Source: Thalassobacillus devorans MSP14 (GTDB lineage Bacteria; Bacillota; Bacilli; Bacillales; Halobacillaceae). Taken from it: 64,000 nt of DNA. Where the stretch lies: assembly GCF_000496835.1 (NCBI RefSeq), contig NZ_KI543237.1:452364-516363 (forward strand), given 5' to 3'. Below, in pieces: positions 741-62,450 of this stretch; position 1 is the stretch's first letter; each line of letters starts with the position of its first letter. The notes beneath the pieces are model-generated. The model did not search any database, was not told the origin of the DNA, and worked only from the letters and a program-made list of their open reading frames with translations. The position numbers and the translations under genes are program-made.

Positions 741-806
741 TCTGGAGGACCTGGGGTGCAAACAAAAGCACCCCGGGTCCTCCATTTTTGGAGGGCTCCG
801 GGGTGG
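741..806. repeat. Bipartite GC-rich palindromic repeat, locus 1
   Basis: A half unit (TGGAGGACCTGGGGTG) is followed by a full hairpin whose left arm is ACCCCGGGTCCTCCA and right arm TGGAGGGCTCCGGGGT, paired with two G-U wobbles and one bulge. It lies between the convergent GH8-like and amylopullulanase genes. No T-run follows, so it is not a classical terminator, although it may act as one. Five related loci occur in the window. Confidence 0.85.
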
Positions 807-812
807 GTCACT

Positions 813-3800
813 TTATTTAAGCTTTTTTATTTTCTCTAACGCTTCTGTAAGCTGCTTGGAGGCTGTTTTGTCTGCATTTTTCTTGCCTGCATCTTCCAGC
901 AACTTCTCCAAACTACGCTCGATCTGTTCCACAGCTGTTTCAACAGCTCGTGCTTTGCCGGTTTGCTTTTCTTCTTTGTCCTCATTTAAGAATACTTCCA
1001 ATACAATATCCTTAATTTCTGCCGGTTTCATTTCGCCTGCTGCAGTCAGATCCATCATGGTTCCGGCATCTTGTGCAGCAGAAACTTTACCAGCTAGGAA
1101 ATCTTCGGTATTGAATTGAACCAGCTCTTCCGGTGTCAGCGGTTCATTCGCTTTACGGTTTTCCATTTTGATGACGACGGTTGTCAGCGGCTCGATAGTC
1201 AGTGTATCTTCCGTCATTTCAAAACCGGATCGTTCGTCCACTGATTCAGCACCAGCTTCGTCACTGTCTACCAGCACATCGCCGCCACGGAAGTTATAAT
1301 CACCTAGTGTCAGGCTGCGTGCTTGATCATCGGCATTGACGAATACATAATAGTTGCCCGTTTCGTCGGTCGACACTGCTTCATAACCGATCAACAAGTC
1401 ATTCTCCTGCATTTCGGGGAATTCCAGCAAGGAAACATTTTCATTGACCAGCGATTGTTCGCCCAACCTAAATGCATTGGTAGATTTACGCAGTTCAATC
1501 ATGCCTGCTGTGAAGTCCCTCGTCGTTGTATTAACCGCATATTTCTCTTCGTTGGTCGCTTTTTCCCAGTCAAACATGTTTATGGCATCAGAAGAATCAT
1601 AGGAATCATGGATGAAGTAGCCAAATGGATCGCCACTGTCATCAGTCAATTCATGATACTTCTGTTCCGGTACACCTTCACCGAGCCATTGCTTGGTACG
1701 ACCGTACTCCTGGCCGGAATGGATGAAAGCTGTACCCTGGGAGGTCAAAATCATCGAATTCCCTAGACGAATCCGTTTATGAATTTCTAAATCGTTTTCC
1801 GGTATGGCCGGATCCTTTTTAATTGACTGGGCGATGACATCATACAACGGCAGGTTATCGTGTGCCGCAATGTACTGGACCATATCGCCTGGATCGTCTT
1901 CCGCCGTATTGGAAGGCTGACCTTTGATGTTGTTGAAAATGACATCGAGATCACGTGCTCCCCCGGTCAGGAAGCGAGGCTCCCCTTCAGAACCGAAACC
2001 GGACTTTAATTCGTTTCGAATTTCATCGGAGAATACGGCGACATCGTCGGTTTTATCCATCCAGTCCTGATCTGCGCCCATACCTTCTAAAGATGGATCG
2101 GCAAGATGGCCGGCAAACGTTCTCCATCCTTCACCGATGAACAACGCATCCGGGTTGATCGCTTCTGCGGCATCATACGCATTCTGGACAGCTGGATAAG
2201 TAGCGTCACCCATCATGTCAAAACGCATGCCGTCAATTTTGTACTCATCGAACCAGTATTCTACGGAATCGACCATCAGCTTTTCCGCCATATAATGGTT
2301 GGTCGCCAGGTTGTTACCGAAACCGCCAAGGAAGTTGCCCTGATCGTCCTGGAAAGCATAATAATCAGGAACGATATCATTCAAGGTGCTTGTCTTGGCC
2401 ATATGGGTATAGACGACATCAAACACAACGCCCATGCCGGCATCGTGAATTGCATCGATCAATTGCTTCAATTCTTTCACACGCAGTTCTGGATCTTTCG
2501 GGTTTTCGGAATAGGCACCATCCGGCGAGAAGTAACTGTGCGGGTCATAACCCCAGTTGTACGAATTACCCGCTGCTGAATACTCCAGTTCCCGTTCACC
2601 CATATCGGTTTCATCGCCATAGTACCATGCCATCACAGGAAGCAGCTGCACATGGGTTACTCCCAGCGATTTAATATAGTCCAGCTTGTCAATGAACGCG
2701 GTATAAGATCCCCATTTGGAATCCAGGTCATCTGCGATGGATGGGTCAGATGTAAAGTCGCGGATGTGAGTTTCGTAAATCACCGCATCTTCACGTTTTT
2801 CATAACCATCGATCGCCGCATGACCGAAGCCTTCCGGATCTGTACCGCTCAAATCGACGATTGCCGCTTTACCGACATCATCGCCATCCGGGCCAGGTTC
2901 GCCTGTCGTGTCGACAGTAAATGCTGCCATGGACTTGGCGTATGGATCCAATACTTTTTTCGTGACACCGTCATTGGTCACTTCGTACTGATAGTAGTAG
3001 CCTTCGAGATCCTCAACTCCCAGTTCACTGGCAGCGACCTCTTCAGCCCAGACACCCTGTTCCACTTTTGTCAGTTCGACACTGCCAATTTTGGTTGCGG
3101 CATCTTCTTTGTCAAAAAAGTTCGCCACGACTTTGCTTGCTTTTGGCGCCCATAATTTCAATGTGGCATCGCCATCCTGATAGGTTGCACCAAGATCATC
3201 GCCTTCATAGGCATACAGTTCATCAATCATTCTCCAGCTCGTGTCTGCGGAAACAGTTCTTTCCCCGTATTCCACCGTCAGTGGAAGTTTTTCCAAATCG
3301 AAAACAGCTTTCACTTCCACCGTCTTGTCACCGGTGATATCCACACTGTCTATCGCTACATCGTTACCATCGACATCTTTGATGGACAGCTTCGCGATCA
3401 AACCATCAACGGTCAGACCATCAGTCATGGTAAAGCTTAATTCGATGGTATCTTCGGCAATCACCTCTGCCGATGCAAGGCCAGTGGCCATTTCCCAGTA
3501 CGGAGAAACATAGACATTGTCGTCACCTTGTCTGAGCCATAGCTGATTGTATCGGTCTAATAGATTGAAAGTTTTGTCGCCGCCATCTTTGTTGCCATTC
3601 GTCGTATCAAGCGTGATCATGCCGATTTCCTTTGCATTTTCTGTCAGCTTGATATCTACATAGGCCCCGTATCTGTCTGTTCCTTCAAAAGGAGCGGCAC
3701 CAGTCGGCCAATTTTCAGAAGGATTAGCTACATCGCCCCAGTTCCAAAGACCGAAGTTTTCATAATCATCATTGTCGCGGTCATAATGGATGCGAACGGT

Positions 3801-6704
3801 ATTTTCAGGTAAATCTACTGGTTCATAGGTATAAACTTTATCCGATCCCTGTTTGATATAAATCTCGTTGATTTCCGGTGAGGTAATCGTAAAATCTTTA
3901 TCTCCACCATCTTTTCCGGCATCTCCTTTGGTCACATCCATGACCAGGAAGCCGATATTTTTCGCACCGTCAGCAAGTGGTACGTCGGCATAGGCACCAT
4001 AGCTGTCTGTTTCTTCAAACATGGTCGCTCCTGTCGGCCAATTTGCGGAAGGTTCAGCTACATCATTCCACAGCCATAAGCCATAGTTTTCATAGTTGCC
4101 ATCGTCACGCTTGTAATGGATGCGGATATGATCTTCCGGGACAGGCTCGACTTCCATGTCGCCTTCTCCTCCATCACTTGCACCTGCAACACCCGTAATG
4201 GCTCCACCTTCAGCGGTCAACAAGGCAGTACCACCGTCCGCTTTGGAAGGGATAGTCAAAGTAACCTTTCCTTCTGAAGCCTCGTAAACCTTTCCAGTAT
4301 AGTGATCGGTCACAGTTGTACCGTCTTCCACTTCGATGGTCACTTCCTTAGCTTCATCGGCAACATTAAGCCCGACATGGACGGAGCTGCCGTCATAAGC
4401 CCGTTCAAACAGTAAGAATTGATCGCTGTCAGATCCGCCGACAAACGTACGATCTCCTTTTGCAAAAACCTCGGACTGCTCGCCCCGGAAGTTCAAAATC
4501 TTAGAATAGTGTGCGAGAATATCATTGTTTTCTACTTCATTCCAGGCAAAATCATAGCGGTTATCGTATTCCGGGTAGTTGTTCGCTCCCGATTGCCCGA
4601 GTTCTTCCCCGTAATAGATGACCGGCTGCCCTTTTGCGGTCGCCTGAAGGGAAGCCGCTACTTTCAGTTTGCCTTCATCGCCACCAAGAGAATGCAGGAA
4701 ACCATCTTCATCGTGGCTGCCTAAAAATTGCCCTAACGTAGCGGTGTTATCCATTTTCTCATTACGTGCAGCAAGCTTGTCATCGGCTGCTTTCAAGCTG
4801 CCATTGACGAAATCATGGGCAATTCCTTTGAATCCGAAATCAAGGAGCGAGTCCATCATTCCGGTTTCCAGGTAGCCGTAATCGTTGTCGGCATTGGCTC
4901 CCCATGCTTCCCCGATCATTTTGTGTTCCGGCATTTTTTCCGTAATCGCGTTCTTGAATGCCATCCATGTCGTATCCTCGACATGCTTTACGGTATCGAC
5001 ACGGAAGTAGTCAATCGTGTTTCCTTCATCTGTCGTCGCTGCCTCAATCCAGCTCGTCTGCCAGTCGATGATCTGCTGGCGGACGGCAGGATCTTCGGTC
5101 TTTAAGTCAGGTAATCCAGCCAGTTCACCGACAACCTCATCGGTGCCGACATCTGCTCCCTGACGGACAAGGCTGCTGAACCTTTCGCGGTCAGCGTCGG
5201 TCGGATAACCTTCCGGCTGCTCAGCTTCAGGCATATCGTCGACTTCCTTCAAACCATATCCGGTATGATTCAATACGACATCGACCATGATTTTCATATC
5301 ACGGGCATGGGCTTCATCAATCAGGTTATGGAACTCTTCCATCGTTCCGAAGTGGGGGTTCAATTTCCCAAAGTTATTTGCCCAATAACCATGGTAGCTA
5401 TAGTAAGGCTGGTCGCCGTCTTCATTGTAGCGGACATCATACTTGATGTTTTCGACAATCGGGCTGATCCAGATCGTGTTCACCCCAAGATTATCGAGAT
5501 AATCAAGTTTTTTCGTAATCCCTTCAAAATCTCCTCCCTGGTAGGTGCCACGTTTTTCCGTGTCATAACCAAGGTTGTATGGATCGTTGTTCGATGTATC
5601 ACCATCAAAAAAGCGGTCGGTCAGCATAAAATAAATGATCGACTCGTCCCAGTCAAAATCAGCTTCACCGACAGACTGGCGCGTTTTCACTTCTACTTCT
5701 GCGGTTCCTTCATGATGATTGCCGAAAGAATCTACTACAGTAAGCGGAATCGCCTTCGTCCCAGCTGTCACGTCATCATCGACAGCAATGGAGATTTCCT
5801 GTAGTGACGGATCAATCGGCAGCTTTTGTGATCCGCCTAAGGAAGAAATATCCGCATACATTTCTGTAACCTGCAGGTTATCCGTTAGACCTTCCACATC
5901 AACATTCAACACAGCGTTTTCATTATAGTCAATCGCTGCAGGTTCGACTGTTCCCGAAACGCTGAGGTCAGCTTTTTCGAAACTGATGGTCGAAACGCCA
6001 TCTACTGTGTTGTATGGATCGGTCACCTCGGTAGTCTGCCCATCCTTGGTCACGAGGTACGTGTATGCATGTTCTCCATTTGGAATATCATTGTACGTAA
6101 AAACAAACCGCTCATTCTCCGGCTCATACGTCATTTCCTTCGTTTCACCGTTGAACTTCAACTCGACTTTATCGATCGTGTCCATCGCATCGGATGCGAA
6201 CAACTCTTTATCCCTGTAAAAGAACGTCGCATTTCCGTTATCAATGACAGGAGCCGAGCCATCCGGCACTATCCTTATTTCCTCGACACCGCTGGTTATG
6301 TAGGCCTTGGTGAGGGTGTCGTTCTGGCTGACCTGGATAAAGCGGTCTCCAAATTCTTTTTCCGCCGTATTCCAGTCTTCCGTGCTGCGGAGTACAAAAC
6401 CGAACTCTTTTGTTTCCGGTGCAACGGAAATATTCGCTGTCGCAACACTGCCTTCATACGAATCAAAATTAATCTGGCCATCCTGGACGCCAGTATTCCA
6501 GGTCCAAATATTCCAGTCGCCAAAATTCTCATCTTCCCGGATGTAATTGAACTGGACCGTTCTTTTTGTAGTTTCCTCTGTCGCGGTTGCATCAGTAGCT
6601 CCCGCTGCATGCGTCTGTTTAACTGGCGCAATCGGCGACCATAAGCTTAACAGCATGATCAAAATCAAAAAAATGGAGAAATTACGCCTCGTATCTCTTC
6701 TCAT
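813..6704 (-). CDS. Secreted amylopullulanase with separate amylase and pullulanase catalytic domains
   Basis: A 1963-residue exoenzyme that should cut both alpha-1,4 and alpha-1,6 bonds of starch, glycogen or pullulan. A Sec signal peptide (about 1-34) precedes a CBM41-like domain (50-130), linker domains, and a GH13 alpha-amylase domain (350-760) with region I DVVLNH, nucleophile D570 in FRVD, acid E599 in IGEAW and D665 in GSHDED. Two tandem CBM41-like domains follow (about 860-960 and 968-1065), then a CBM48-like domain (1165-1265) and a second GH13 domain of pullulanase type (1305-1790) with YNWGYDP at 1382, D1496, E1525 and D1616. The tail (about 1850-1963) is charged and helical, with no LPXTG anchor. 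The amylase-first order matches amylopullulanases of alkaliphilic Bacillus. An AAGGAGGA site precedes the ATG. Antisense frames inside are shadows. Confidence 0.95.
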   Translation of the reverse strand: MRRDTRRNFSIFLILIMLLSLWSPIAPVKQTHAAGATDATATEETTKRTVQFNYIREDENFGDWNIWTWNTGVQDGQINFDSYEGSVATANISVAPETKEFGFVLRSTEDWNTAEKEFGDRFIQVSQNDTLTKAYITSGVEEIRIVPDGSAPVIDNGNATFFYRDKELFASDAMDTIDKVELKFNGETKEMTYEPENERFVFTYNDIPNGEHAYTYLVTKDGQTTEVTDPYNTVDGVSTISFEKADLSVSGTVEPAAIDYNENAVLNVDVEGLTDNLQVTEMYADISSLGGSQKLPIDPSLQEISIAVDDDVTAGTKAIPLTVVDSFGNHHEGTAEVEVKTRQSVGEADFDWDESIIYFMLTDRFFDGDTSNNDPYNLGYDTEKRGTYQGGDFEGITKKLDYLDNLGVNTIWISPIVENIKYDVRYNEDGDQPYYSYHGYWANNFGKLNPHFGTMEEFHNLIDEAHARDMKIMVDVVLNHTGYGLKEVDDMPEAEQPEGYPTDADRERFSSLVRQGADVGTDEVVGELAGLPDLKTEDPAVRQQIIDWQTSWIEAATTDEGNTIDYFRVDTVKHVEDTTWMAFKNAITEKMPEHKMIGEAWGANADNDYGYLETGMMDSLLDFGFKGIAHDFVNGSLKAADDKLAARNEKMDNTATLGQFLGSHDEDGFLHSLGGDEGKLKVAASLQATAKGQPVIYYGEELGQSGANNYPEYDNRYDFAWNEVENNDILAHYSKILNFRGEQSEVFAKGDRTFVGGSDSDQFLLFERAYDGSSVHVGLNVADEAKEVTIEVEDGTTVTDHYTGKVYEASEGKVTLTIPSKADGGTALLTAEGGAITGVAGASDGGEGDMEVEPVPEDHIRIHYKRDDGNYENYGLWLWNDVAEPSANWPTGATMFEETDSYGAYADVPLADGAKNIGFLVMDVTKGDAGKDGGDKDFTITSPEINEIYIKQGSDKVYTYEPVDLPENTVRIHYDRDNDDYENFGLWNWGDVANPSENWPTGAAPFEGTDRYGAYVDIKLTENAKEIGMITLDTTNGNKDGGDKTFNLLDRYNQLWLRQGDDNVYVSPYWEMATGLASAEVIAEDTIELSFTMTDGLTVDGLIAKLSIKDVDGNDVAIDSVDITGDKTVEVKAVFDLEKLPLTVEYGERTVSADTSWRMIDELYAYEGDDLGATYQDGDATLKLWAPKASKVVANFFDKEDAATKIGSVELTKVEQGVWAEEVAASELGVEDLEGYYYQYEVTNDGVTKKVLDPYAKSMAAFTVDTTGEPGPDGDDVGKAAIVDLSGTDPEGFGHAAIDGYEKREDAVIYETHIRDFTSDPSIADDLDSKWGSYTAFIDKLDYIKSLGVTHVQLLPVMAWYYGDETDMGERELEYSAAGNSYNWGYDPHSYFSPDGAYSENPKDPELRVKELKQLIDAIHDAGMGVVFDVVYTHMAKTSTLNDIVPDYYAFQDDQGNFLGGFGNNLATNHYMAEKLMVDSVEYWFDEYKIDGMRFDMMGDATYPAVQNAYDAAEAINPDALFIGEGWRTFAGHLADPSLEGMGADQDWMDKTDDVAVFSDEIRNELKSGFGSEGEPRFLTGGARDLDVIFNNIKGQPSNTAEDDPGDMVQYIAAHDNLPLYDVIAQSIKKDPAIPENDLEIHKRIRLGNSMILTSQGTAFIHSGQEYGRTKQWLGEGVPEQKYHELTDDSGDPFGYFIHDSYDSSDAINMFDWEKATNEEKYAVNTTTRDFTAGMIELRKSTNAFRLGEQSLVNENVSLLEFPEMQENDLLIGYEAVSTDETGNYYVFVNADDQARSLTLGDYNFRGGDVLVDSDEAGAESVDERSGFEMTEDTLTIEPLTTVVIKMENRKANEPLTPEELVQFNTEDFLAGKVSAAQDAGTMMDLTAAGEMKPAEIKDIVLEVFLNEDKEEKQTGKARAVETAVEQIERSLEKLLEDAGKKNADKTASKQLTEALEKIKKLK

Positions 6705-6790
6705 TCAATTATTTCCTCCTTAATAGATTAATAGAATAGCGTCATCAGCCCTCCCTTCTTTTCGTAAACCTATACGTTTGCAACTTGTGG

Positions 6791-6804
6791 CGCAAACGCT
6801 TGCA
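6791..6804 (-). promoter_or_regulatory. cre-like / LacI-family operator, proximal
   Basis: CGCAAACGCTTGCA; its reverse complement fits the CcpA cre consensus with two mismatches. It also forms one side of a wider dyad with CGTTTGC at 6775-6781. It lies about 90 bp before the amylopullulanase start, suggesting catabolite repression or a MalR-type LacI regulator. Confidence 0.55.
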
Positions 6805-6856
6805 TAAAAGGGTAAATAAAAAGAAGTTCTTAAGTCATAGGTATTTTATATTATCG

Positions 6857-6870
6857 TGCAAGCGCTTGCA
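6857..6870. promoter_or_regulatory. cre-like perfect palindrome, distal
   Basis: TGCAAGCGCTTGCA is a perfect 14-bp palindrome differing from the cre consensus at one position. It lies about 155 bp before the amylopullulanase start. Together with the proximal site it suggests control of that gene by CcpA or another LacI-family protein. Confidence 0.6.
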
Positions 6871-6964
6871 TTTTATGTTTTTATTTTACATGATTTGCTA
6901 ACAAACGGCAAACTGGAATTTCTTTTTACAATGCACTTAGACGCATTCTTGCTCCATAAACCAA

Positions 6965-7051
6965 ACACCCCGGGTCCTCCAGATTTTGGAGGGCTCCGGG
7001 GTGTTCAAGGTTTTACCCCAGGTCCTCCAGAATTTGGAGGACCTGGGGTGG
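6965..7051. repeat. Bipartite GC-rich palindromic repeat, locus 2
   Basis: Two complete hairpins stand in tandem. The first is the wobble-paired type (ACCCCGGGTCCTCCA with TGGAGGGCTCCGGGGT). The second has a perfect 15-bp stem (ACCCCAGGTCCTCCA with TGGAGGACCTGGGGT). The pair begins 7 bp after the stop codon of the leftward beta-propeller gene. The remainder of the gap up to 6704 holds only the two cre-like sites and the amylopullulanase promoter region. Confidence 0.9.
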
Positions 7052-7057
7052 CTCAGT

Positions 7058-8539
7058 TTATCTCTCGATTTTATTTTTTCTGCTTTTCCTTACGGTAACA
7101 ATTAGGATAGTTACCAGTACAACAAATGTTACTAAAGGTATCCCATAAACGACCGTAAGAAAACTGAACTGGCTTTTCTCCGGAGGCTCCGGGTCAGCGG
7201 TGAATGCATCCGAACCATTACGGATATCCTCTGTAGGCAGTGCATAAACCTTGCTATCCTGACTCCCGACAATCAACGTATCATTCATAATAATCGGTCC
7301 CGATGGTGCCAGAGTGCCGCCAAGTTTCTTTCGTCCGATTTCTTCCCCTGTTTCAGCATCGAGGGCATGGACGTATCCTTTAGCGTTAGAAAAATAGACA
7401 ACTCCACCTTCTGCGACCGGCGGAGCTTTCATCGTAGTGTTTTGAAAGTCCCAAAGCCGTTCGCCGGTTTTCAAATCATAGGCATAAAACTTTTTCGTGA
7501 TCGGACTCCCAACATATACTGTTCCATTGTAAATCATCGGTGCACCTGATTTATTGTTTTTTACCATCTCGCCATATCCAAGGCTTTTTTTCCACAGTAC
7601 TTCCCCGGTCTCTGTATCCATCGCATAGATGACATGTTCCGGGTGTTCCATGCGCTCCCCGCCAAATGACCTTCCCATTTCTTTATAAGCTTCTAACAAT
7701 CCATATTGCTCATAGACTTCTTTAAGCGTTAATTGCTTAGGTCCCTCCAGCGCTGTCGTTACGACAATATCATCGCTGATGGCAGGCGGCACATCATCCA
7801 ACCCGGCGAAAGCTTTCGGCATTTCCGTCTGCCACACCACTTCACCATCAGCTAAATCAATAGAAGAAAAAGTATATGGCTGTGGATGGCCGCCTCCCAC
7901 AAACAACTTCCCTTCATATAGATTAGGAGAAGACATACTGACGACATGACCAAGACCTATCTCGTCCACGACCTCCCCTGACTCCACTTCCATCTTATAT
8001 ATCTGCCTGTCCCCTGCCGCGGCATAAACATAACCATCATGATAAACCGGGGCGGGCATGACTTCACCGTCGGTACTTGTCTGCCATTTCGTTTCGCCTG
8101 TTTCCGCATCCACAGCCATCACGCCGCTTTTTCCTGTACCCCGGAGCCCATTACCCTGAAAAAATCGGTTGCCATACCCGACATAAACGGTTCCGTCATG
8201 ATAGATCATTTCCGAATGGATCCAGTTCGGCGCCTGGTTCTGCCACAATTGCTCTCCTGTCTTGATATCAAAAGCAAACATACCTCCGGTATTGTGATTG
8301 CCGACAAACATGCGGTCTCCTGCCACTACTGGTGTCGAACGGATTTCATCCTCTGTTTCAAATGTCGTGGCCTCAAGCGGCTTTACTCCTTCCTGGTTAA
8401 AAACGGGATTATTGCTGTCATTCAACCGATATTCCAGCCATTCATCAGGCCCAAAAGCCGCCCACGCACCAGCAGGGGCAATCAATAAGTATAATAGTAA
8501 TACCGCACCGGCCCAGCTATTTTTCATCACCAACTTCAC
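7058..8539 (-). CDS. Membrane-anchored PQQ-type beta-propeller protein
   Basis: 493 residues: an N-terminal signal peptide (about 1-27), a beta-propeller built from repeated blades with motifs such as DAETGETKW, DTETGEVLW, DLKTGERLW and DAETGEEIG, and one C-terminal membrane segment (about 461-484) followed by a basic tail. The bulk should face outside the cell. Such WD40/PQQ_2 propellers bind ligands or partners. No quinoprotein dehydrogenase residues are evident, so an enzyme role is not claimed. The GTG start follows GGGGAGGG at 7-nt spacing. It is read toward the amylopullulanase gene and might assist exoenzymes or the envelope, which is speculation. Confidence 0.8.
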   Translation of the reverse strand: MKLVMKNSWAGAVLLLYLLIAPAGAWAAFGPDEWLEYRLNDSNNPVFNQEGVKPLEATTFETEDEIRSTPVVAGDRMFVGNHNTGGMFAFDIKTGEQLWQNQAPNWIHSEMIYHDGTVYVGYGNRFFQGNGLRGTGKSGVMAVDAETGETKWQTSTDGEVMPAPVYHDGYVYAAAGDRQIYKMEVESGEVVDEIGLGHVVSMSSPNLYEGKLFVGGGHPQPYTFSSIDLADGEVVWQTEMPKAFAGLDDVPPAISDDIVVTTALEGPKQLTLKEVYEQYGLLEAYKEMGRSFGGERMEHPEHVIYAMDTETGEVLWKKSLGYGEMVKNNKSGAPMIYNGTVYVGSPITKKFYAYDLKTGERLWDFQNTTMKAPPVAEGGVVYFSNAKGYVHALDAETGEEIGRKKLGGTLAPSGPIIMNDTLIVGSQDSKVYALPTEDIRNGSDAFTADPEPPEKSQFSFLTVVYGIPLVTFVVLVTILIVTVRKSRKNKIER

Positions 8540-8609
8540 AACAAAACCCTCCCCTTCTTCAAAACATCTCTACTCCATTACTTACTATCATACCCCTGAG
8601 GCAATTGTG

Positions 8610-8717
8610 TTACTACATCTCACTCTAAGAATTAAAAATGGAGGTCTAGGAATAGAGTATGCCAGAGTTGTCTTTTCCAGGAAATATAACAACTACGTGC
8701 CTCCTTATAACCTATGA
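8610..8717 (+). pseudogene. Possible 3' remnant of a lost gene
   Basis: A coding-like tail reads rightward (TLRIKNGGLGIEYARVVF...) and ends at TGA 8715-8717, 51 bp before a strong hairpin. Upstream the frame runs antisense through the start of the beta-propeller gene, so no intact gene exists. It may be chance; the remainder of the 320-bp gap is the promoter region of the flanking genes. Confidence 0.2.
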
Positions 8718-8768
8718 CTCTAATCTTACAAGGCAAGCAGGCGAAGATTTCAGATCCTTATAAAAGAC

Positions 8769-8806
8769 AAAAGGTGTTTTGCATGTTTGGGTGCAAAACA
8801 CCTTTT
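8769..8806 (+). terminator. 15-bp hairpin, terminator-like
   Basis: AAAAGGTGTTTTGCA pairs perfectly with TGCAAAACACCTTTT around an 8-nt loop. It is terminator-like in either direction, yet no intact gene ends just before it; the possible gene remnant on its left would fit. Confidence 0.6.
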
Positions 8807-8858
8807 CCTGTTGTAGAGTTTCCCTTATAATTCGTGTAAGGATGGGAGGCAGTACGAT

Positions 8859-9710: not shown

Positions 9711-9734
9711 AAAGCGAACCTTGTATAATATTAA

Positions 9735-10377: not shown

Positions 10378-10468
10378 AGCTGAGAGAGAATGCGGATCTA
10401 GGGGCTGACTATTCGTATAGAAGATGGCGTTGTTCTGGTTACTGAATCTTAAGCTCTATAAACCAAAC

Positions 10469-10512
10469 GAAACAAAAGGTCTGAAGGGGGTACCCTTCAG
10501 ACCTTTTGTTTC
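10469..10512 (-). terminator. Terminator of the siaPQM-nanK-nanR operon
   Basis: A perfect 20-bp stem (GAAACAAAAGGTCTGAAGGG with its complement) and a 4-nt loop lie 21 bp after the stop of the leftward RpiR-family gene. The stem ends in A/T-rich arms typical of bidirectional terminators. Confidence 0.85.
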
Positions 10513-10533
10513 ATCCTTTTTTAAAGTAAAATC

Positions 10534-24126: not shown

Positions 24127-24311
24127 ACCCCGGAGCCCTCCAAATTTTGGAGGGCTCCGGGGTAAAATGAAATATAGACTTATATTACACTGCATCGTGT
24201 CCAGGAAATTTTTCAAAAGTGGTTATAAAGGATAAATAGCCGAGTTAGGGAGGACTGCGGGGTAAACTCAGTTACACCCCAGGTCCTCCAGATTCTGGAG
24301 GACCTGGGGTA
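24127..24311. repeat. Bipartite GC-rich palindromic repeat, locus 3, split
   Basis: The first unit (24127-24163) has a perfect 16-bp stem, ACCCCGGAGCCCTCCA with its complement. The second (24274-24311) has the 15-bp stem ACCCCAGGTCCTCCA. Between them lie a degenerate half unit (GGGAGGACTGCGGGGTA, 24248-24264) and a yitT-like fragment. This is the largest of the six loci and sits between divergent genes. Confidence 0.85.
24179..24240 (+). pseudogene. Fragment of a second yitT 3' end
   Basis: The first 22 bases are identical to 9634-9655 in the yitT-family gene (CTTATATTACACTGCATCGT and two more), and similarity continues through CAGGAAATTTT and GGTTATAA to a stop, matching the last ~20 codons. 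Nothing of the rest of the gene remains. It is flanked by palindromic repeat units. Confidence 0.8.
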
Positions 24312-28357: not shown

Positions 28358-28465
28358 CCACACCACGGTTTCTGCTCTCCCAGGGTGCCTGAACCTGGCC
28401 CACTCACTTCCATCAGGAAACACATTACCGGGAAAACCAAATTAAAATCAGAGATCTCAATACAG

Positions 28466-28505
28466 TGGGTCAGACTCCCGTGGCTAAGTCCTGGAGTCTG
28501 ACCCA
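28466..28505. repeat. Long inverted repeat
   Basis: TGGGTCAGACTCC and GGAGTCTGACCCA form a perfect 13-bp stem around 14 nt. It lies 108 bp after yfhO and has no T-run. It is unrelated in sequence to the six-locus repeat family; possibly a REP-like element. Confidence 0.7.
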
Positions 28506-28526
28506 TCATACATAGATCTATGTATT

Positions 28527-33865: not shown

Positions 33866-33932
33866 TCTGGAGGACCTGGGGTATGAACGCTCACACCCCG
33901 GAGCCCTCCAAAATCTGGAGGACCCGGGGTGT
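33866..33932. repeat. Bipartite GC-rich palindromic repeat, locus 4
   Basis: A half unit (TCTGGAGGACCTGGGGT) precedes a full hairpin with left arm ACCCCGGAGCCCTCCA and right arm TGGAGGACCCGGGGT, that is, the mixed unit in the opposite orientation to locus 1. It lies between convergent genes. Confidence 0.88.
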
Positions 33933-52477: not shown

Positions 52478-52568
52478 TAGCTGGTTTTCACTATTAGCAT
52501 AGAGTTAACTTAAAGCTTAGTCGACTGAGCAAAAAGGTTTTTTCCAAAAAATCAAAAGGAGTGTACGT

Positions 52569-53546: not shown

Positions 53547-53552
53547 TTACAT

Positions 53553-53579
53553 TGCCTGCTGTCTTCCTTACAGCAGGCA
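53553..53579 (+). terminator. Intra-operon hairpin between tctC and tctB
   Basis: TGCCTGCTGT / ACAGCAGGCA with a 7-nt loop, then TTTTCTT. A partial terminator or stabiliser giving more binding protein than membrane subunits is likely. Confidence 0.75.
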
Positions 53580-53607
53580 TTTTCTTCAAAGAGAGGTGAT
53601 ATCGATA

Positions 53608-54057
53608 ATGAAAACCTTAAAGCTGCTCATGCCTGCAGGACTGACGATTTTTAGTATTGTCTTCCTGTTTGCATCCTTGAACCTGCCAAAAGCCAACTTA
53701 GGAAATCCGTACGGACCTATCTACTTCCCATTAGGGTTAAGTATATTCATGCTGATTTTCAGTGTCATTTTCTTCATTCAGGAATTGAAAAAACTACATG
53801 AAACAAACACCGATATCAAGCTGATGTTATCAGGAAGAACGCCTAAACTGATCCTGTTTACCATTGCAGCCGGGCTCGTCTATGCCTTCCTGTTCGAACC
53901 ACTCGGCTTCTTATACTCCACGATGATTTTTTTAGGAGCGCTGCTTTTTTTTATCAACGGGCCAAAGAAATGGCTGGTGAACATCATCGTGACGGTCAGT
54001 TTTTCTTTCATCAGCTGGTATGCGTTTAGTCAACTGCTCGGTGTCAGTCTACCTTAG
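53608..54057 (+). CDS. tctB: TctB small membrane subunit
   Basis: 149 residues, four membrane helices (PAGLTIFSIVFLFASLNLP, PLGLSIFMLIFSVIFFI and two after). Start at ATG 53608 (AGAGAGGTG before it); an in-frame GTG at 53596 lies within that ribosome site. Partner of TctA. Confidence 0.85.
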   Translation: MKTLKLLMPAGLTIFSIVFLFASLNLPKANLGNPYGPIYFPLGLSIFMLIFSVIFFIQELKKLHETNTDIKLMLSGRTPKLILFTIAAGLVYAFLFEPLGFLYSTMIFLGALLFFINGPKKWLVNIIVTVSFSFISWYAFSQLLGVSLP

Positions 54058-54068
54058 GAGGTGAAACC

Positions 54069-55589: not shown

Positions 55590-55604
55590 GGAGGAGAAAG
55601 TAAC

Positions 55605-57095
55605 ATGGAAAAATATGATTTAGTCGTAGTCGGCGCTGGAAATGCCGCCTTGTGTGCAGCCATTTCCGCACAAGAAAACGGAGCGAATGTCCTCGTACTG
55701 GAAAAAGCTCCTGAACAAAAACGCGGCGGTAATTCCTATTTCACCGATGGAGCGATCCGATTCGCCTATAACGATTTAAGCGACATCAGAAAACTGATAC
55801 CGGAACTCTCTGATGGAGAAGCAGATAACATCGTCATGCCGGAATACAGCACGGATGATTACTACAATGACCTGCAGCGGGTGACAGGTGGCAAAAGTAC
55901 TCCTGAGCTGGCCAGCCATCTTGTCAACAATTCCTATGACACGATTGCCTGGATGAAAGAACAAGGCGTCGAATTCGAGCTGAACTACAGCAATCAGTCA
56001 TTTGAAAAAGACGGAAAGTTCCAGTTCTGGGGAGGCCTGCCCGTCAAGACGAAAAACATCGGCATGGGGCTGATGAGCACCTTGTTCAACCGAGCGAAAG
56101 AACTTGGAGTCGATATCTGGTACGGATCCGAGGCCATGGCATTGAAAACCGATAAGAATCGCATTTCTTCTATTATAGTAAAAAAAGGCAGTGAAGAAAT
56201 TGAAGTTGCCACCACTTCTGTTGTGCTTGCCTGCGGAAGTTTCGAGGCCAACAGGAAAATGCGTGCGGCACAAATTGGAGAAGAATGGGAAGCAGCCATT
56301 GTCCGCGGCACCGAATACAATACCGGCGACGGACTTTCCATGGCTCTTTCAGTCGGGGCACAGAAACACGGCGAATGGGCAGGCTGTCACGCGATCGGAA
56401 CAGATGCGAACGCACCCAAAACCGGAGACTTCAACAAGCCCGGTGACATTTTCAAAAAACACTCCTACCCGCTCAGTATCATGCTCAACAAAGATGGTAA
56501 ACGATTTGTGGACGAAGGTGCGGACTTCCGGAACTATACGTATGCGAAGTATGGAAAGGAAATCCTGAAACAGCCAGGCCATATCGCTTACCAAATCTAT
56601 GACGAGCAGGTAAGACCGATGCTCCGGAAGGAATATAATCTCGAAGAAGCTACTTATTATAAAGCCGACACACTGGAAGACCTGGCAGACAGGCTGGACG
56701 TAAACACTTCCGCTTTTTTGGAAACCATCCAGGAATATAACGAAGCAGTCCAGGATGGATATTATAACCCTACCGTAAAAGACGGCAAAGGAACGGAAGG
56801 CATTACACCACCGAAATCGAACTGGGCGCTCCGCATCGAACAGGGACCATTTTACGCTTTTCCTGTCACTTGCGGCATCACCTTCTCCTTCGGGGGCGTG
56901 CGTGTCAATACCAATGCAGAGGTACTGAATGAAAACGACGAGCCGATCCACGGCTTGTTCGCCGCCGGGGAAATGGTCGGAGGTATTTTCTACGAAAACT
57001 ACCCTGGCGGTTCAGGGCTCATGTCCGGCGCCGTCTTCGGAAAAACAGCTGGTACGTCTGCCGCAAACTATGTAACCAAAAGTGTCACATCTTAA
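55605..57095 (+). CDS. tcuA: FAD-dependent dehydrogenase, TcuA/tricarballylate dehydrogenase-like
   Basis: 496 residues of the fumarate reductase flavoprotein family. FAD-binding VVGAGNAALCAAISA, EKAPEQKRGGNSYFTDGAIR, and C-terminal TCGITFSFGGVRVN with LFAAGEMVGGIFYENYPGGSG. No signal peptide or haem sites, so it is cytoplasmic. TcuA oxidises tricarballylate to cis-aconitate in enteric bacteria; the neighbouring TctCBA would supply such a substrate. TcuB, its usual electron-passing partner, is absent. Symbol by similarity, substrate not proven. Confidence 0.8.
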   Translation: MEKYDLVVVGAGNAALCAAISAQENGANVLVLEKAPEQKRGGNSYFTDGAIRFAYNDLSDIRKLIPELSDGEADNIVMPEYSTDDYYNDLQRVTGGKSTPELASHLVNNSYDTIAWMKEQGVEFELNYSNQSFEKDGKFQFWGGLPVKTKNIGMGLMSTLFNRAKELGVDIWYGSEAMALKTDKNRISSIIVKKGSEEIEVATTSVVLACGSFEANRKMRAAQIGEEWEAAIVRGTEYNTGDGLSMALSVGAQKHGEWAGCHAIGTDANAPKTGDFNKPGDIFKKHSYPLSIMLNKDGKRFVDEGADFRNYTYAKYGKEILKQPGHIAYQIYDEQVRPMLRKEYNLEEATYYKADTLEDLADRLDVNTSAFLETIQEYNEAVQDGYYNPTVKDGKGTEGITPPKSNWALRIEQGPFYAFPVTCGITFSFGGVRVNTNAEVLNENDEPIHGLFAAGEMVGGIFYENYPGGSGLMSGAVFGKTAGTSAANYVTKSVTS

Positions 57096-57101
57096 TTTGT
57101 T

Positions 57102-57130
57102 CAAGCCACCTACATCGTGCAGGTGGCTTG
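57102..57130 (+). terminator. Hairpin after tcuA
   Basis: CAAGCCACCT / AGGTGGCTTG, perfect 10-bp stem with a 9-nt loop, then TCTCATTCTTTT. A weak terminator. It covers the first possible start of the next gene, supporting the later start. Confidence 0.6.
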
Positions 57131-57161
57131 TCTCATTCTTTTGCCATTAGGAGACATCGCT

Positions 57162-58541
57162 ATGGAGAAACGAAAAATACTGCTATTACTATCGCTGGCC
57201 ATTTATATCATCTTCTTTTTTCCATTATTCGACTGGGATATCAAAGTGAAAGCGATAGCTGCCTTATTCTTCATACAAATATTATGGATCGGAAGAGTAT
57301 TCACCCTTGCTTTCAGCTCGTTATTGTTCATCCTGGTGCTCTCATTCCATTTTTTCAGCTATGAAGAAACACTCGGCTATCTCGGAGAGGAAGTCGTCTG
57401 GCTGTTATTCGCCACCTATATTATTTCCAACGCCTTTATCAAAACAGGACTCGCCAGCCGCTTGTCCCTAAATCTGTTAAAACTCTCGAAGGGTTCAGGG
57501 AAAGCTCTCATCCTGATATCTTTTATCCTGATGCTGGTGTTATCTGTGCTGGTGCCATCCAATATCGGAAAGGGGAATCTTGTATCGTCCGTCCTGGACA
57601 GGCTCTTAAAAAGTCTGCGGGAAATCAATGATGTCACCAATCTGGGAAAATCCCTGTTCATCGGCATCAGCTACTTAAGTGCCATTTCCGGAGCTTTTGT
57701 TGCCACAGGGGCAAGCAACACCATTTATACATTCGGGATATTCACAAACATCTACCCGGACTTAAACTATTTGACCTGGCTCATCTACTTCGCCCCGCCG
57801 ATTCTGCTGTTCATATTTATTCTATGGCTGATCATGATGAGCTATTTTCCACCGGAAAATGTCGATCAGGGTCACCTGGTAGGGTTACTGGAAGAACGCT
57901 TGAACGAGTTAGGAAACATCAACCTGGCTGAAAAGAAAGTCATTGCCATCATGGGGGTTACCCTCCTATTATGGGCGACACAAAGCATACACGGGTTCTC
58001 CATCCCGCTCGTCGGTCTGTTAGGAGCCGTGCTCACCATGCTCCCCGGTATTGGCGTATGGGAATGGAAAGAAGCGAGAGAATCGATCAACTGGGATATG
58101 ATGCTGTTTTTCGCCAGCACCCTGATGGTATCCGGCATGCTTATTAAAACCGGCACGGTCGAGTGGCTTGCAAAAGTCATCGTCGAAACCACTGCCTCCC
58201 AGTCTGCTATTTTAGTAGTGATCATCTTGATATTGTGTACCCTGATCGTGCGCATTGTCTTTGTGAACGTGCTTGGATTTCTAACCATCATGATCCCGCT
58301 GTCTATCAATATCGGAGAAAACCTGGCCGGCTTCTCTCCGCTGATGGTAGCCATGGCTGTCTTTTTAACAGGAGTACCCGGCTTCTATTTGATCACCCAA
58401 TCTCCTGTTCACCTGATCAGTTATTCGTTCGGTTATTTTAGTGACAAGGACCTTTTGAAGGTGGGCCTTCCCACTTCCCTGGTATGGGTCGGGGTCATCA
58501 GCGTTTCACTGCTATTCTTCTGGAGAATCGTGTTAGGTTAA
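57162..58541 (+). CDS. DASS/SLC13-like anion or carboxylate permease
   Basis: 459 residues from ATG 57162 (AGGAG 8 nt before). About 11-12 membrane helices with two inverted halves; ALSYLSAISGAFVATGASNTIY-type segment (seen as ISGAFVATGASNT) and VTLLLWATQSIHGF, NWDMMLFFASTLMVSG fit the SLC13/CitT group. It may export or import a dicarboxylate linked to the TctCBA-TcuA pathway. An earlier in-frame start at 57117 falls in the hairpin. Confidence 0.78.
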   Translation: MEKRKILLLLSLAIYIIFFFPLFDWDIKVKAIAALFFIQILWIGRVFTLAFSSLLFILVLSFHFFSYEETLGYLGEEVVWLLFATYIISNAFIKTGLASRLSLNLLKLSKGSGKALILISFILMLVLSVLVPSNIGKGNLVSSVLDRLLKSLREINDVTNLGKSLFIGISYLSAISGAFVATGASNTIYTFGIFTNIYPDLNYLTWLIYFAPPILLFIFILWLIMMSYFPPENVDQGHLVGLLEERLNELGNINLAEKKVIAIMGVTLLLWATQSIHGFSIPLVGLLGAVLTMLPGIGVWEWKEARESINWDMMLFFASTLMVSGMLIKTGTVEWLAKVIVETTASQSAILVVIILILCTLIVRIVFVNVLGFLTIMIPLSINIGENLAGFSPLMVAMAVFLTGVPGFYLITQSPVHLISYSFGYFSDKDLLKVGLPTSLVWVGVISVSLLFFWRIVLG

Positions 58542-58547
58542 TGGTTA

Positions 58548-58619
58548 ACACCCCAGGTCCTCCAGGAAATGGAAAACACACCCCAGAGCCCTCCAAAATC
58601 TGGAGGACCCGGGGTGTGT
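58548..58619. repeat. Bipartite GC-rich palindromic repeat, locus 5
   Basis: A left half unit (ACACCCCAGGTCCTCCAGGA) followed by a mixed full hairpin, left arm ACCCCAGAGCCCTCCA and right arm TGGAGGACCCGGGGT. Fills the space between the convergent permease and gntP genes and may terminate both. Confidence 0.88.
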
Positions 58620-58620
58620 A

Positions 58621-59976
58621 TTAAACAAAAATCAACCACAGAACGAAGGTTACCAGGATCGCTACGATCCCCTGGATCAACGTACCTGCTGTCTGCGCTT
58701 TATAAGCTTGTGTAACCGACATGCCGCTGAACTCTTTCACTACCCAGAAGTAGCTGTCATTCACGTGGGATACGACCATCGCACCTGCTCCGACAGACAT
58801 GACTACCAGCGCAAGCGGCAAGGCGCCTTCGATTCCCATTTGCCCCAGTAACGGTGCTACCAAGGTAGATGTGATGACGAGTGCTGCCGTGGATGAACCT
58901 TGTGCTGTTTTCAATGCAGCAGCAATCAGGAATGGAATGAATACGAACATGGCACCAGCGAACACATCATTGGAGGCGAACCCTTTGATGAATTCGGCAA
59001 CTGGTGTCGCTTTAATGACAGACCCGAATGCGCCACCTGCACCGGTGATCAGCAGGATAGGAGCCGCTTCCTTGATTCCGATGCCTACCCACTGCGTCAA
59101 TGTTTCTTCGTCATACTTCGGCAGAAGCCCGAATGCGAATAAAACACCGATCAGCAAAGCAACGACTGGTGCACCAAGGAATAGGAAGATATCAAACAAT
59201 GTTCCTTCCCATCCGGCAAAAGTGATTACCGAACTGAAACCGATCAACAGAATCGGCACAAGGATTGGTGCAAATGATTTGAATGTCGATGGCATCTCAC
59301 CGAATTCTTTTACAATCGTATCGTAATCGAAGGAATGGTCATCTTCTCCTTCGATATGTATTTTTGTACCTGCTTTAAGCGCCCACAGATAACCGGCGAT
59401 GATTACCGGGATAGCAACGATGAAACCGACCAGGATGACGGTTCCCAGATAGTTTTCCGCTCCGATGTTACCTGCCGCTGCAATCGGACCCGGTGTCGGT
59501 GGTACCAGTGTATGTGTCGCGAACAAACCGGTCGACAATGCGATTGCCATGGAAGCGACGGTAACCTTCGCTCTGCGCGCAAGCGCTTTCTTCAACGACG
59601 ATAAAATGACGTAACCGGAGTCACAAAATACCGGAATACTGACAATACTTCCGATGACACTCATAGCAAGCTGGGGACGTTTTTCCCCGACGATACGCAA
59701 AACGACTTCCGCCATGCGCAAGGCCGCTCCTGATTTTTCTAAAATGACTCCGATGATCGTACCGAACACGATGACCAGCCCGATGCCGCCCATCAGTCCT
59801 CCAAATCCTCCATTGACAGCTTCGACAACTTCCGATAATGGAAGTCCCGCCACAATTCCGATTCCGAATGCAGCGATCAATAATGATAGAAATGGATGAA
59901 GCTTGAATTTAGCTGTTGCAAAAATAACGAATAATACCCCTAATGTTATGACTAAAATAAGACCGATACCTTCCAC
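58621..59976 (-). CDS. GntP-family permease, probable glycerate transporter
   Basis: 451 residues, GntP family: PLLSLLIAAFGIGIVAGLP-like N-terminus, GGIGLVIVFGTIIGVILE, HTLVPPTPGPIAAAG and LITGAGGAFGSVIK. Gluconate, glycerate and related acids are substrates of the family; the glycerate kinase gene 15 nt upstream points to glycerate. GTG start after GGAG. Confidence 0.87.
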   Translation of the reverse strand: MEGIGLILVITLGVLFVIFATAKFKLHPFLSLLIAAFGIGIVAGLPLSEVVEAVNGGFGGLMGGIGLVIVFGTIIGVILEKSGAALRMAEVVLRIVGEKRPQLAMSVIGSIVSIPVFCDSGYVILSSLKKALARRAKVTVASMAIALSTGLFATHTLVPPTPGPIAAAGNIGAENYLGTVILVGFIVAIPVIIAGYLWALKAGTKIHIEGEDDHSFDYDTIVKEFGEMPSTFKSFAPILVPILLIGFSSVITFAGWEGTLFDIFLFLGAPVVALLIGVLFAFGLLPKYDEETLTQWVGIGIKEAAPILLITGAGGAFGSVIKATPVAEFIKGFASNDVFAGAMFVFIPFLIAAALKTAQGSSTAALVITSTLVAPLLGQMGIEGALPLALVVMSVGAGAMVVSHVNDSYFWVVKEFSGMSVTQAYKAQTAGTLIQGIVAILVTFVLWLIFV

Positions 59977-59991
59977 TCGATCACTCCTCTC

Positions 59992-61128
59992 TTAAATTTC
60001 CAATCTGGATGACGTTTCAATCAAATGGATGATCTGTTTCGTAGCATCGTATAAAAGCGTTTCCGCATGTGTGATACAGTCCTCAAGACTCATCGGTCCT
60101 GGAATGATAGAAAAACATCCGGCAAAAAGTCGATTGAGTTCTTCTACGTTTCCACCAATACTGCCAGAAATCAGTACGGCTGGCACGCCATGGTTCCGGG
60201 CAAGCTCGGCGACATATCCAGGAGCTTTCCCGTATAATGTCTGTTCATCGCTCTGTCCTTCTCCTGTAAAAACAAGATCAGCATCTGTGAGGCTTTCTTC
60301 CAACCCGATCGCTTCGGCAATCAGTTTTGCGCCTGACACCAGTTCCGCGCCAATAGTCAGTAAGGCGAATCCCAGGCCGCCAGCAGCTCCGGCACCTTCC
60401 ACTTCCATATGGTTTTCACCGGTTTCCGCTTCAATCAGCTTTCCATAACGTTCCATAGCGGCATCATAGTGTTCTACCTGCTGCTCGGTTGCACCTTTTT
60501 GCGGACCGTATACCGCTGAGGCTCCGCGTGGACCAGTCAGTGGATTATCAACATCACAGGCTACTTTGATCTCGATATTTTTCAAGCGCTCATCAAGGTT
60601 TTTGAAGTCGAGTGCAGCTACTTCCAGCAGGGATGCGCCTTTGGCAGGAAGTTCGCTGCCTTCTTCATCAAAAGCTTTTAACCCCAGCGCCTGAAGCATG
60701 CCAATACCTCCATCATTGGTCGAACTCCCGCCTAAACCGACCAGAATCTCCGTGAATCCTTCATCGATGGCATCTTTGATCGCCTCTCCAATCCCGTAGG
60801 AAGTGGTAAGATCGGGGTTCCTTTTTTCTTCCGGTACCAGCGTCAAACCGGCAATGGTTGCCGCTTCGATGACAGCGATTTCATTTTTGAGCGCGGCATA
60901 CCAGCCGGACTGTCTTTCCCCTAATGGACCTGTGCAATCGAGAACCTTCTTCTCCCCGTCAGTGGCAGCCAGAAGCGCATCAAGTGTTCCCTCTCCACCG
61001 TCAGCCATAGGCTTTGTAACTGTGTCAAAGGCTGGGTTGGCTGACAGAATCGCGCGTTGCATGGTTTCTGCTGCCTGCCGGGAGGTCAAACTCCCTTTGA
61101 ATGAATCTGGTGCAATAACGATTTTCAT
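59992..61128 (-). CDS. glxK: Glycerate kinase (GlxK/GarK type)
   Basis: 378 residues. Family I glycerate kinase: MKIVIAPDSFKGSLTS, ADGGEGTLDAL, GLGGSSTNDGGIGML, and VFTGEGQSDEQTLYGKAPG. It forms 2- or 3-phosphoglycerate for glycolysis. Operon with gntP, behind the CdaR gene. AAGGAG precedes the ATG. Confidence 0.93.
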   Translation of the reverse strand: MKIVIAPDSFKGSLTSRQAAETMQRAILSANPAFDTVTKPMADGGEGTLDALLAATDGEKKVLDCTGPLGERQSGWYAALKNEIAVIEAATIAGLTLVPEEKRNPDLTTSYGIGEAIKDAIDEGFTEILVGLGGSSTNDGGIGMLQALGLKAFDEEGSELPAKGASLLEVAALDFKNLDERLKNIEIKVACDVDNPLTGPRGASAVYGPQKGATEQQVEHYDAAMERYGKLIEAETGENHMEVEGAGAAGGLGFALLTIGAELVSGAKLIAEAIGLEESLTDADLVFTGEGQSDEQTLYGKAPGYVAELARNHGVPAVLISGSIGGNVEELNRLFAGCFSIIPGPMSLEDCITHAETLLYDATKQIIHLIETSSRLEI

Positions 61129-61230
61129 AAGCTACTCCTTCCAAGCGTCACTACCTTTATTCAACCGAAAAAACAGGACACATACAATCAGCCTATTCGA
61201 CAAAATTTTCAGACTTTTCAACTGTGTAAT

Positions 61231-61246
61231 TTGTGCAAGTGCACAA
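61231..61246. promoter_or_regulatory. Dyad between cdaR and glxK
   Basis: TTGTGC-AAGT-GCACAA is a perfect 6-4-6 inverted repeat 103 bp before glxK and 5 bp after the cdaR stop. Likely CdaR operator for glxK-gntP. Confidence 0.5.
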
Positions 61247-61250
61247 TTGT

Positions 61251-62336
61251 TCACGTTTCGATTCGTTGAAGGATCATATATAATAAGCTGGCATCTTTGA
61301 ATAGTTGCGGGTTCAGTCCTACTTTTTCTGTGATCTGCCCAAGCCTATAGTTCAGTGTATTCCGATGGATATGCAAAGATTCAGCCGTTTCTTTCACTTT
61401 AAAATTGTTTTCTAAAAACTGTTTCAGCGTCTGTATATACGGTGTGCCTAACGCCTGCAATTTTTGTTGATACAGGGAAGCTATAGAATCGTACTTCTCA
61501 TCAGGAATAGCATCCACCATTCGCTCTAACTCCCAGTCGGAACTTAACGTTACGGTCGTCGCCAGGTCGGAAAATTGCAGTGCCTGCTTCGCTTGAAAAT
61601 AAGATTTACGCAGCCCGTTGATGCCGCTTCCGATCTCACCTATTCCAACCCTCGTCTTACCGCCAATCCGCTGAACCAGTTTCTCAGCAAACGTAACAGG
61701 GGCCTGTTCTGCAGCTGAGAGAGCAACGACATATTCCTTTTCACGATATTGAATGGTAAAAAGCGGCTGTAAAGCCAGCTGATCAACAACCACTTTTATT
61801 TGATCGTTCTTTTCAGCTAGTCTATCGGAATAAACCAAAAACACCCTCCACTCCCCCGTTACATTCGTGTCGAGTGTATAGCGTGCTTCCTGTGTCAAAA
61901 ATTCTTCGTTGATACCTGCCGGGTGCAACAATTGCTGCAGCCAATTCTCCCACTGGCGTTCTTTATAAAAAGTCTGGCGCTGGATATAAATCTGTTCCAA
62001 AGCTATTTCAACCGAAGCCTTCGTCATTCCGGCAGCCTGCATGATGGCTTCCGGATCACCGGTAAGTCCGACGACACCAGCAAGCTCATCACGATGCCGG
62101 ATCGGGAGGTTCACCCCTTTTTTCGCACCGGGAAATTCATTGATATTCTCATCACCGATAATCAAATCCTGTTGATGTTGCATCACATAAATAGCGCCTT
62201 GATGAACCTGCCTGACACGGGAAGAATCAGAACTTGCGACAATCCTGCCTTCCGGGTCCATCAGATTCATCGGAACATGTATATAAGGTGCCAGACGCTG
62301 AATGATTTCATTGCCGAGATCCTCTGTAATCTTCAT
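61251..62336 (-). CDS. cdaR: CdaR-family sugar diacid/glycerate regulator
   Basis: 361 residues. N-terminal diacid-recognition domain (about 1-135; LAPYIHVPMNLMDPEGRIVASSD in part), a GGDEF-like middle part, and a C-terminal PucR HTH (VKETAESLHIHRNTLNYRLG). E. coli CdaR activates galactarate, glucarate and glycerate genes; here its neighbours are glxK and gntP. AGGAGGAGG precedes the ATG. Confidence 0.9.
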   Translation of the reverse strand: MKITEDLGNEIIQRLAPYIHVPMNLMDPEGRIVASSDSSRVRQVHQGAIYVMQHQQDLIIGDENINEFPGAKKGVNLPIRHRDELAGVVGLTGDPEAIMQAAGMTKASVEIALEQIYIQRQTFYKERQWENWLQQLLHPAGINEEFLTQEARYTLDTNVTGEWRVFLVYSDRLAEKNDQIKVVVDQLALQPLFTIQYREKEYVVALSAAEQAPVTFAEKLVQRIGGKTRVGIGEIGSGINGLRKSYFQAKQALQFSDLATTVTLSSDWELERMVDAIPDEKYDSIASLYQQKLQALGTPYIQTLKQFLENNFKVKETAESLHIHRNTLNYRLGQITEKVGLNPQLFKDASLLYMILQRIET

Positions 62337-62377
62337 ATGAATGCCTCCTCCTGTGCTCTGCCTATTTTACCATAACA

Positions 62378-62450
62378 ACACCCCGGGTCCTCCAGATTTT
62401 GGAGGGCTCCGGGGTGTGGGAATCTTCACCCCAGGTCCTCCAGAATTTGG
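62378..62450. repeat. Bipartite GC-rich palindromic repeat, locus 6
   Basis: A full mixed hairpin (ACCCCGGGTCCTCCA with TGGAGGGCTCCGGGGT) followed by a left arm ACCCCAGGTCCTCCA whose right partner has decayed. It lies between divergent genes, so it is not simply a terminator. Confidence 0.88.

Follow-up and report, generated by a model that had tools for sequence, protein, structure and literature searches.

Among the closest described systems, the repetitive extragenic palindromic (REP) sequences of the GTAG and CGTC types and the TIRYT transposases are described in PMC3733652. The accessible parts of the papers cited here describe pairs of REPs and REP-associated tyrosine transposases (RAYTs) mainly from Proteobacteria and a few other phyla, and in those of PMC2817692 the REP-linked RAYTs that fit its criteria come only from gammaproteobacteria, with one acquired betaproteobacterial case. 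We here describe a family of palindromes found at six loci in a stretch of 64,000 nucleotides of Thalassobacillus devorans MSP14 (the window; C2:452364-516363 of genome G000, 3.94 Mb in nine contigs). This host is a spore-forming member of the Bacillota, since G000 has a Spo0A_C domain, which among 14 control genomes only B. subtilis has. We consider it likely that the loci are REP-like elements, i.e., non-autonomous palindromes copied by a RAYT/TnpA-REP transposase that would recognise the folded palindrome. The initial annotation of the window had proposed such a mobile element, and the proposal is supported: the palindromes are multicopy, have a narrow range and, in sister genera, go together with a single RAYT clade.

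The family is built from three arm types, A (ACCCCAGGTCCTCCA), G (ACCCCGGGTCCTCCA) and E (ACCCCGGAGCCCTCCA), whose orientation is given by > and <. Searching G000 with CCCCRGGTCCTCC for A and G arms yielded 54 exact arms and 64 with at most one mismatch, compared to 3 for the reversed pattern that served as control; CCCCGGAGCCCTCC, the pattern for E arms, yielded 22 and 26, compared to 0. The arms group into 47 clusters, 37 of which hold at least one exact arm, and 58 of 65 arms (up to two mismatches, G000 region examined) lie outside called open reading frames (ORFs, at least 100 aa). With 76 exact arms in 37 clusters, the element is a short (20-50 nt) extragenic multicopy palindrome in the sense used for REPs. 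Each unit is a palindrome of 35-37 bp with the frame ACCCC-core-CCA-N5-TGG-core'-GGGGT, and occurs singly, paired at a distance of 12 nt, or as a truncated arm. The frequent order G> <E A> <A is seen either way round. The two arms of one palindrome are almost always separated by 5 nt (range 4-6), and neighbouring units usually by 12 nt (start-to-start 27-28). The wide spacing of 10-110 bp given initially thus has to be replaced by a regular one, with exceptions of about 112 nt at 24127 and 15 nt at 58550.

All six intergenic loci were recovered where the initial annotation had placed them, and 19 of their 20 arms are exact, the remaining one (58580) having one mismatch. The gap types also agree: judged from mechanical ORF calls, three gaps are convergent (741, 33866, 58548), one is tandem (6965) and two are divergent (24127, 62378). 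The features are as follows (window coordinates; unstranded unless a strand is given).

743-804: locus 1, convergent gap; arm <A (743-757), then palindrome G> (770-784) / <E (789-804) with a loop of 4 nt
6967-7049: locus 2, tandem gap; full composite of two palindromes with a 12-nt spacer, G> (6967-6981) / <E (6987-7002) and A> (7015-7029) / <A (7035-7049)
24127-24163: locus 3a, divergent gap; perfect palindrome E> (24127-24142) / <E (24148-24163)
24248-24263, minus strand: locus 3b, decayed E arm with 3 mismatches
24276-24310: locus 3c, perfect palindrome A> (24276-24290) / <A (24296-24310)
33868-33930: locus 4, convergent gap; arm <A (33868-33882), then palindrome E> (33895-33910) / <G (33916-33930)
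58550-58564, plus strand: locus 5a, solitary arm A>, then CCA-N5-TGG; 8 nt past the stop of ORF 57117-58541 (plus strand)
58580-58615: locus 5b, convergent gap; palindrome E> (1 mismatch; 58580-58595) / <G (58601-58615)
62380-62415: locus 6a, divergent gap; palindrome G> (62380-62394) / <E (62400-62415)
62428-62442, plus strand: locus 6b, arm A>, breaking off after CCA-N5-TGG

Locus 2 comes within 8 nt of the stop codon of ORF 7058-8539 (minus strand), and a resembling composite adjoins the matching gene in two congeners (G003 and G004). The window gave no Rfam match at gathering score, and a plasmid search with locus 2 found no match. Two further strong hairpins in the window, at 10466-10515 and 28461-28510, are not members of the family, and positions 813-6704 (minus strand) encode a protein of 1963 aa with alpha-amylase, pullulanase-associated and isoamylase-type domains.

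The half units of the initial annotation exist as single arms, which are composed differently than described: an arm is followed, often through CCA-N5-TGG, by unrelated sequence. By hand count, 24 of 35 solitary arms read through CCA-N5-TGG before the sequence diverges. Five solitary arms, all in one orientation, lie within 40 kb (L009-L013, G000 C1:412-452 kb), two of which (L010 and L013) have about 25 nt of further sequence in common. In L133, L146, L182, L200, L012 and L152, solitary arms were seen by eye about 55-70 nt upstream of promoter-like TATAAT/TATTAT boxes, and two such sites are common to G003 and G004. Solitary arms near promoter-like boxes may have a regulatory use.

The two arms of the palindromes covary. 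In 30 distinct 35-mers, 41 cells were changed on both sides compared to 16.9 in shuffles, none of 500 of which reached this value, and 7 of the 15 pairs showed changes on both sides, a number reached in 3 of 500 shuffles. These 30 sequences come from 37 distinct 35-mers preselected for at least 12 of 15 pairs; of 99 plus-strand frame matches collected with no such filter, 1 had fewer. The set excludes the palindromes of 36-37 nt with E arms. Such symmetric change of the arms suits recognition of a DNA hairpin and selection at the RNA level equally well. The initial annotation had argued for the latter from G-U pairs that compensate arm differences; this holds for one strand only, as the opposite strand has C-A at the same position. 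Mixed hairpins with a facing gene are read from the G-U strand in 17 instances and from the other in 16 (arm types of decayed copies being approximate), i.e., with no transcription preference. RNA-level selection via G-U pairs was therefore rejected as unsupported, and since this argument fails, the conserved RNA processing site that had been proposed is unsupported in that form.

The window-type hairpin has a narrow distribution. Among 61 genomes it was found in four, all of the window's genus (G000, G001, G002, G003, G004), with 33 strand matches in G000, 16 in G003, 17 in G004 and 1 in G001, perfect palindromes counting twice; G002 had 0 matches. Of the 44 family genomes, 21, from three of six genera, contain the less strict core GGTCNYCCA-N5-TGGRNGACC (reversed control 0 of 44): 18 genomes of two sister genera (g3 and g4) have 13-57 copies each, and three of the five genomes of the window's genus have 6-13. 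In G002 we found 16 palindromes with the core AGAACCA, two of which lie before its RAYT, and this core has one palindrome in G001 and none in G000, G003 and G004. A third core, GGACATCC, is present in all five genomes of the genus and commonest in G002 and G000. Hybrid palindromes also exist, in which each arm comes from a different core.

The link to a transposase emerged from the sister genera. A Y1_Tnp match is present in 48 of the 61 genomes, ordinary IS200-like copies included. We examined 29 RAYT-like genes for nearby palindromes, 28 of which were placed in a tree (the short ORF of G030 was omitted), and 14 of the 28 form one RAYT clade, which holds the RAYTs with window-like palindromes. 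A palindrome of this frame adjoins the gene in 13 of the 14 members, within 700 nt where the stretch was long enough:

Both sides of the RAYT gene: G027, G013, G020, G024, G032, G034, G036
3' side only: G031, G019b, G023b, G033
5' side only: G028, G002
No adjacent palindrome: G025b, the nearest lying 573 nt past the stop

The 5' copies are located 117-139 nt ahead of the called RAYT start in all eight g3/g4 genomes that have one, and the 3' copies start 17-29 nt ahead of the stop, thus spanning the stop codon. No palindrome of this kind accompanies the remaining 15 RAYT-like genes, several of which have other palindromes. Outside the genus, both searches covered 32 family genomes: 13 have palindrome and RAYT clade together, and neither turned up in the other 19 (Fisher 2.9e-9, shared ancestry ignored). 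The G030 copy is 85% identical to that of G026, and the decayed Y1 copy of G022, one of the 19, was left unplaced. All 14 clade members have NHVH or NHIH plus YIHLNP, the HUH and Y---NP motifs expected of the Y1 domain in a RAYT/TnpA-REP protein, and PF01797 scores above its cut-off. The RAYT of G027 matched no PDB chain at E 0.01, and its search against plasmids returned 20 records, none above 60% identity (best Sporomusa, 38%). Other RAYT clades of the family are flanked by palindromes of GTACC and GGTGCC types (L223, L224, L235, L237; L104, L229), as though every clade were paired with a palindrome of its own.

The initial annotation had advised looking for an associated RAYT, and remnants of one lie between palindrome copies in two species of the genus. 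The longer remnant, in G003 (C2:186587-187137), is 69% identical to the G002 RAYT over 119 aa and sits between palindromes at 186261 and 187134-187162. In G000, tblastn recovers the remnant as two short pieces of 30-36 and 20 residues (C2:625168-625321), bounded by palindromes starting at 624978 and 625342; over 142 nt, the DNA there matches the G003 remnant at 84% identity. A rayt gene with matching palindromes on its flanks, as known from REPs, is found in the sister genera, each with its own core, and the window's own type flanks RAYTs only in the form of these remnants.

Several observations weigh against REP-like elements copied by such a transposase. The palindromes have no tag: within 8 nt outward of 142 palindrome ends, GTAG occurs twice, GACG once, and CGTC and CTAC not at all. 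No intact RAYT of the window's genus is flanked by a window-type palindrome; the intact G002 RAYT of the matching clade accompanies a different core, and its placement in that clade is weakly supported (80/60). G004 has 17 pattern matches yet no Y1 match. The RAYT of G027 scores 70.8 bits in the NCBIfam model for REP-associated tyrosine transposases, NF047646, below the cut-off of 80, compared to 80.2 for the intact copy of G000 (two proteins scored). That copy, the sole intact RAYT of G000 (C2:544206-544790; L065:1279-1866, minus strand; 195 aa), belongs to a second clade, and the 19 kb around it hold no arm at up to three mismatches. Finally, no clean empty site was found in the gaps compared between two close species, and both gaps occupied in only one of them are not clean. 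One of these may be an artefact of ORF calling, because the G004 palindrome at 390660 lies about 50 nt beyond the called gap.

Because of its different clade and the lack of nearby palindromes, the intact G000 RAYT was set aside as partner of the palindromes. Its clade mates G014, G017 and G023c have no window-type palindrome beside the gene in the stretch examined (for G014, about 300 nt upstream only). A search of genome contigs with this gene gave two remote matches in betaproteobacterial metagenome-assembled genomes. The gene runs into a following ORF, which we presume to be ComM-like from its appearance. In G001, the single Y1 match is IS200-like judging by its score.

The strongest rival explanation is that the palindromes are ordinary terminators, often bidirectional between facing genes, which came to resemble each other by gene conversion or selection, mobility being irrelevant. 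Their location speaks for such a role: gaps with at least two arms make up 21 of 95 convergent gaps compared to 31 of 834 tandem ones, and of 61 hairpins that have a facing gene, 40 begin no more than 20 nt from the stop codon of that gene, where uniform placement expects 16.6. At 636989, moreover, the place of the G000 palindrome appears by eye to be taken in G001 by a terminator-like hairpin of unrelated sequence. The initial annotation had named identical positions in distant relatives, with RNA ends always mapping there, as a sign of ordinary terminators, and this was found in part: in the genome parts compared, G003 and G004, two close species, keep the gene order around 14 element gaps, 12 of which are occupied in both. 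Identity between these two is higher in the hairpins (173/179, resting on about five hairpins) than in the rest of the same gaps (425/524) or in hairpin-free gaps (7446/8756). High identity and shared gaps fit a long residence and perhaps selection, and gene conversion could give the same. However, the T-run of an intrinsic terminator (at least 4 T in the next 12 nt) follows only 17 of 61 hairpins compared to 10 of 61 on the mirror side, and divergent gaps hold palindromes as well (9 of 94). Terminators would also not be expected to follow one RAYT clade or to flank its genes, and we regard this explanation as unlikely.

Still less probable are protein-binding or chromosome-organising sites gathered in one chromosomal domain, even though the copies are unevenly distributed: 19 of 37 clusters of G000 (by hand count) lie within C2:393-667 kb (274 kb, 7% of the genome), 13 of 16 matches of G003 within C2:91-495 kb, and all 17 of G004 within C1:366-718 kb. 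The G000 interval was picked after viewing the data, so that the binomial value for the clustering, 5e-13, is too strong. GC skew in sampled stretches of G000 puts the terminus at C1:1.2-1.4 Mb and the origin near C2:1.0-1.1 Mb; the cluster region therefore lies mid-arm, not at the terminus, and terminus or domain-organising sites were rejected on these grounds. A B. subtilis dif query had no match at up to six mismatches in the sampled stretches. Gathering is also known from REPs, which the accessible parts of PMC2817692 and PMC8266576 describe near their own rayt gene in marine gammaproteobacteria and Marinomonas, and in both G000 and G003 the RAYT remnant falls inside the clustered stretch.

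Recombination borders of exchangeable gene cassettes can be given hardly any credence. This idea was prompted by single cases: a 4.6 kb stretch of G001 is bounded by palindromes (119555 and 124118), and one gene lies between two palindromes in each of G000, G001 and G003, the G000 sequence beyond them having no match in the parts of the other genomes compared. In the genome parts compared, however, 12 tests against non-operon gaps free of elements gave no significant enrichment of gene-order breaks at element gaps (the lowest p, 0.09, being that of G000 vs G001). Gene order between G000 and its congeners is poorly kept in these parts (71-84 reciprocal best hits for 253 ORFs).

As REP-like elements, the palindromes would have been copied by a RAYT of the matching clade, which may act, in analogy to TnpA-REP, as an HUH (Y1) enzyme on single-stranded DNA. 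Copies in G000 would now be immobile, because the matching RAYT is wrecked. Many could have been retained as hairpins at mRNA 3' ends that would define transcript ends or insulate facing genes, a role that their position makes plausible. More tentatively, the family might stand for a tag-less REP/RAYT class of the Bacillota, with a constant frame (in this genus ACCCC...CCA-N5-TGG...GGGGT), an exchangeable core that changes jointly in the two arms and differs between RAYT lineages, modular arms joined or broken at the CCA-N5-TGG loop, and palindromes kept as gene-end hairpins after loss of the transposase. We found no description of the palindrome family in the accessible parts of the REP/RAYT literature searched (including PMC6006769, PMC8266576, PMC8049555, PMC3733652, PMC2817692 and PMC12306157), and a literature search on RAYT/REPIN in Firmicutes found nothing. 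One bacterial family offers a series from intact RAYTs with matching palindromes, through an intact RAYT with a changed core and wrecked RAYTs with surviving palindromes, to genomes with no RAYT. This series permits asking how core recognition shifts, and what retains orphaned palindromes without copying.

Compared to known systems, the elements share much with REPtrons, the GTAG-type REPs with RAYT/TnpA-REP of Stenotrophomonas, Pseudomonas, Marinomonas and E. coli. According to the accessible parts of PMC2817692, PMC3733652 and PMC8266576, both are short extragenic palindromes in pairs and clusters, both flank rayt genes, often near the stop codon, and both lie mostly downstream of genes and in some genomes gather near rayt. 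The elements differ from REPtrons by the lack of a GTAG/CGTC tag, by a 15-bp stem with a 5-nt loop, by their Bacillota host, and by a matching RAYT that persists in the window's genome as a remnant only; no position flanking the 142 palindrome ends exceeds 0.67 bits. According to PMC3733652, TIRtrons, in which terminal inverted repeats enclose a Y1 transposase gene (TIRYT), likewise have untagged flanking repeats, some self-complementary and some moderately abundant in dimers or clusters, but their terminal inverted repeat motif GGGGWSAS fits only 4 of the 142 palindrome ends (after GGGGT), which sets our elements apart.

The transposases themselves, with NH[VI]H and YIHLNP motifs, resemble RAYT subclass 2.1, for which the available text of PMC6006769 gives NHVH and Y[IV]HLNP motifs, a median length of 238, a C-terminal extension and no REPs, and to which most TIRYTs belong. 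As the RAYTs found here have about 187 aa, this assignment is one by motifs only. REPINs and bacterial interspersed mosaic elements (BIMEs) are similar in their inverted units, short spacers, mixed units and two orientations; here, however, every unit is a full palindrome, and a doublet consists of two adjacent palindromes. In this comparison, the elements of T. devorans are REP-like, RAYT-linked and untagged.

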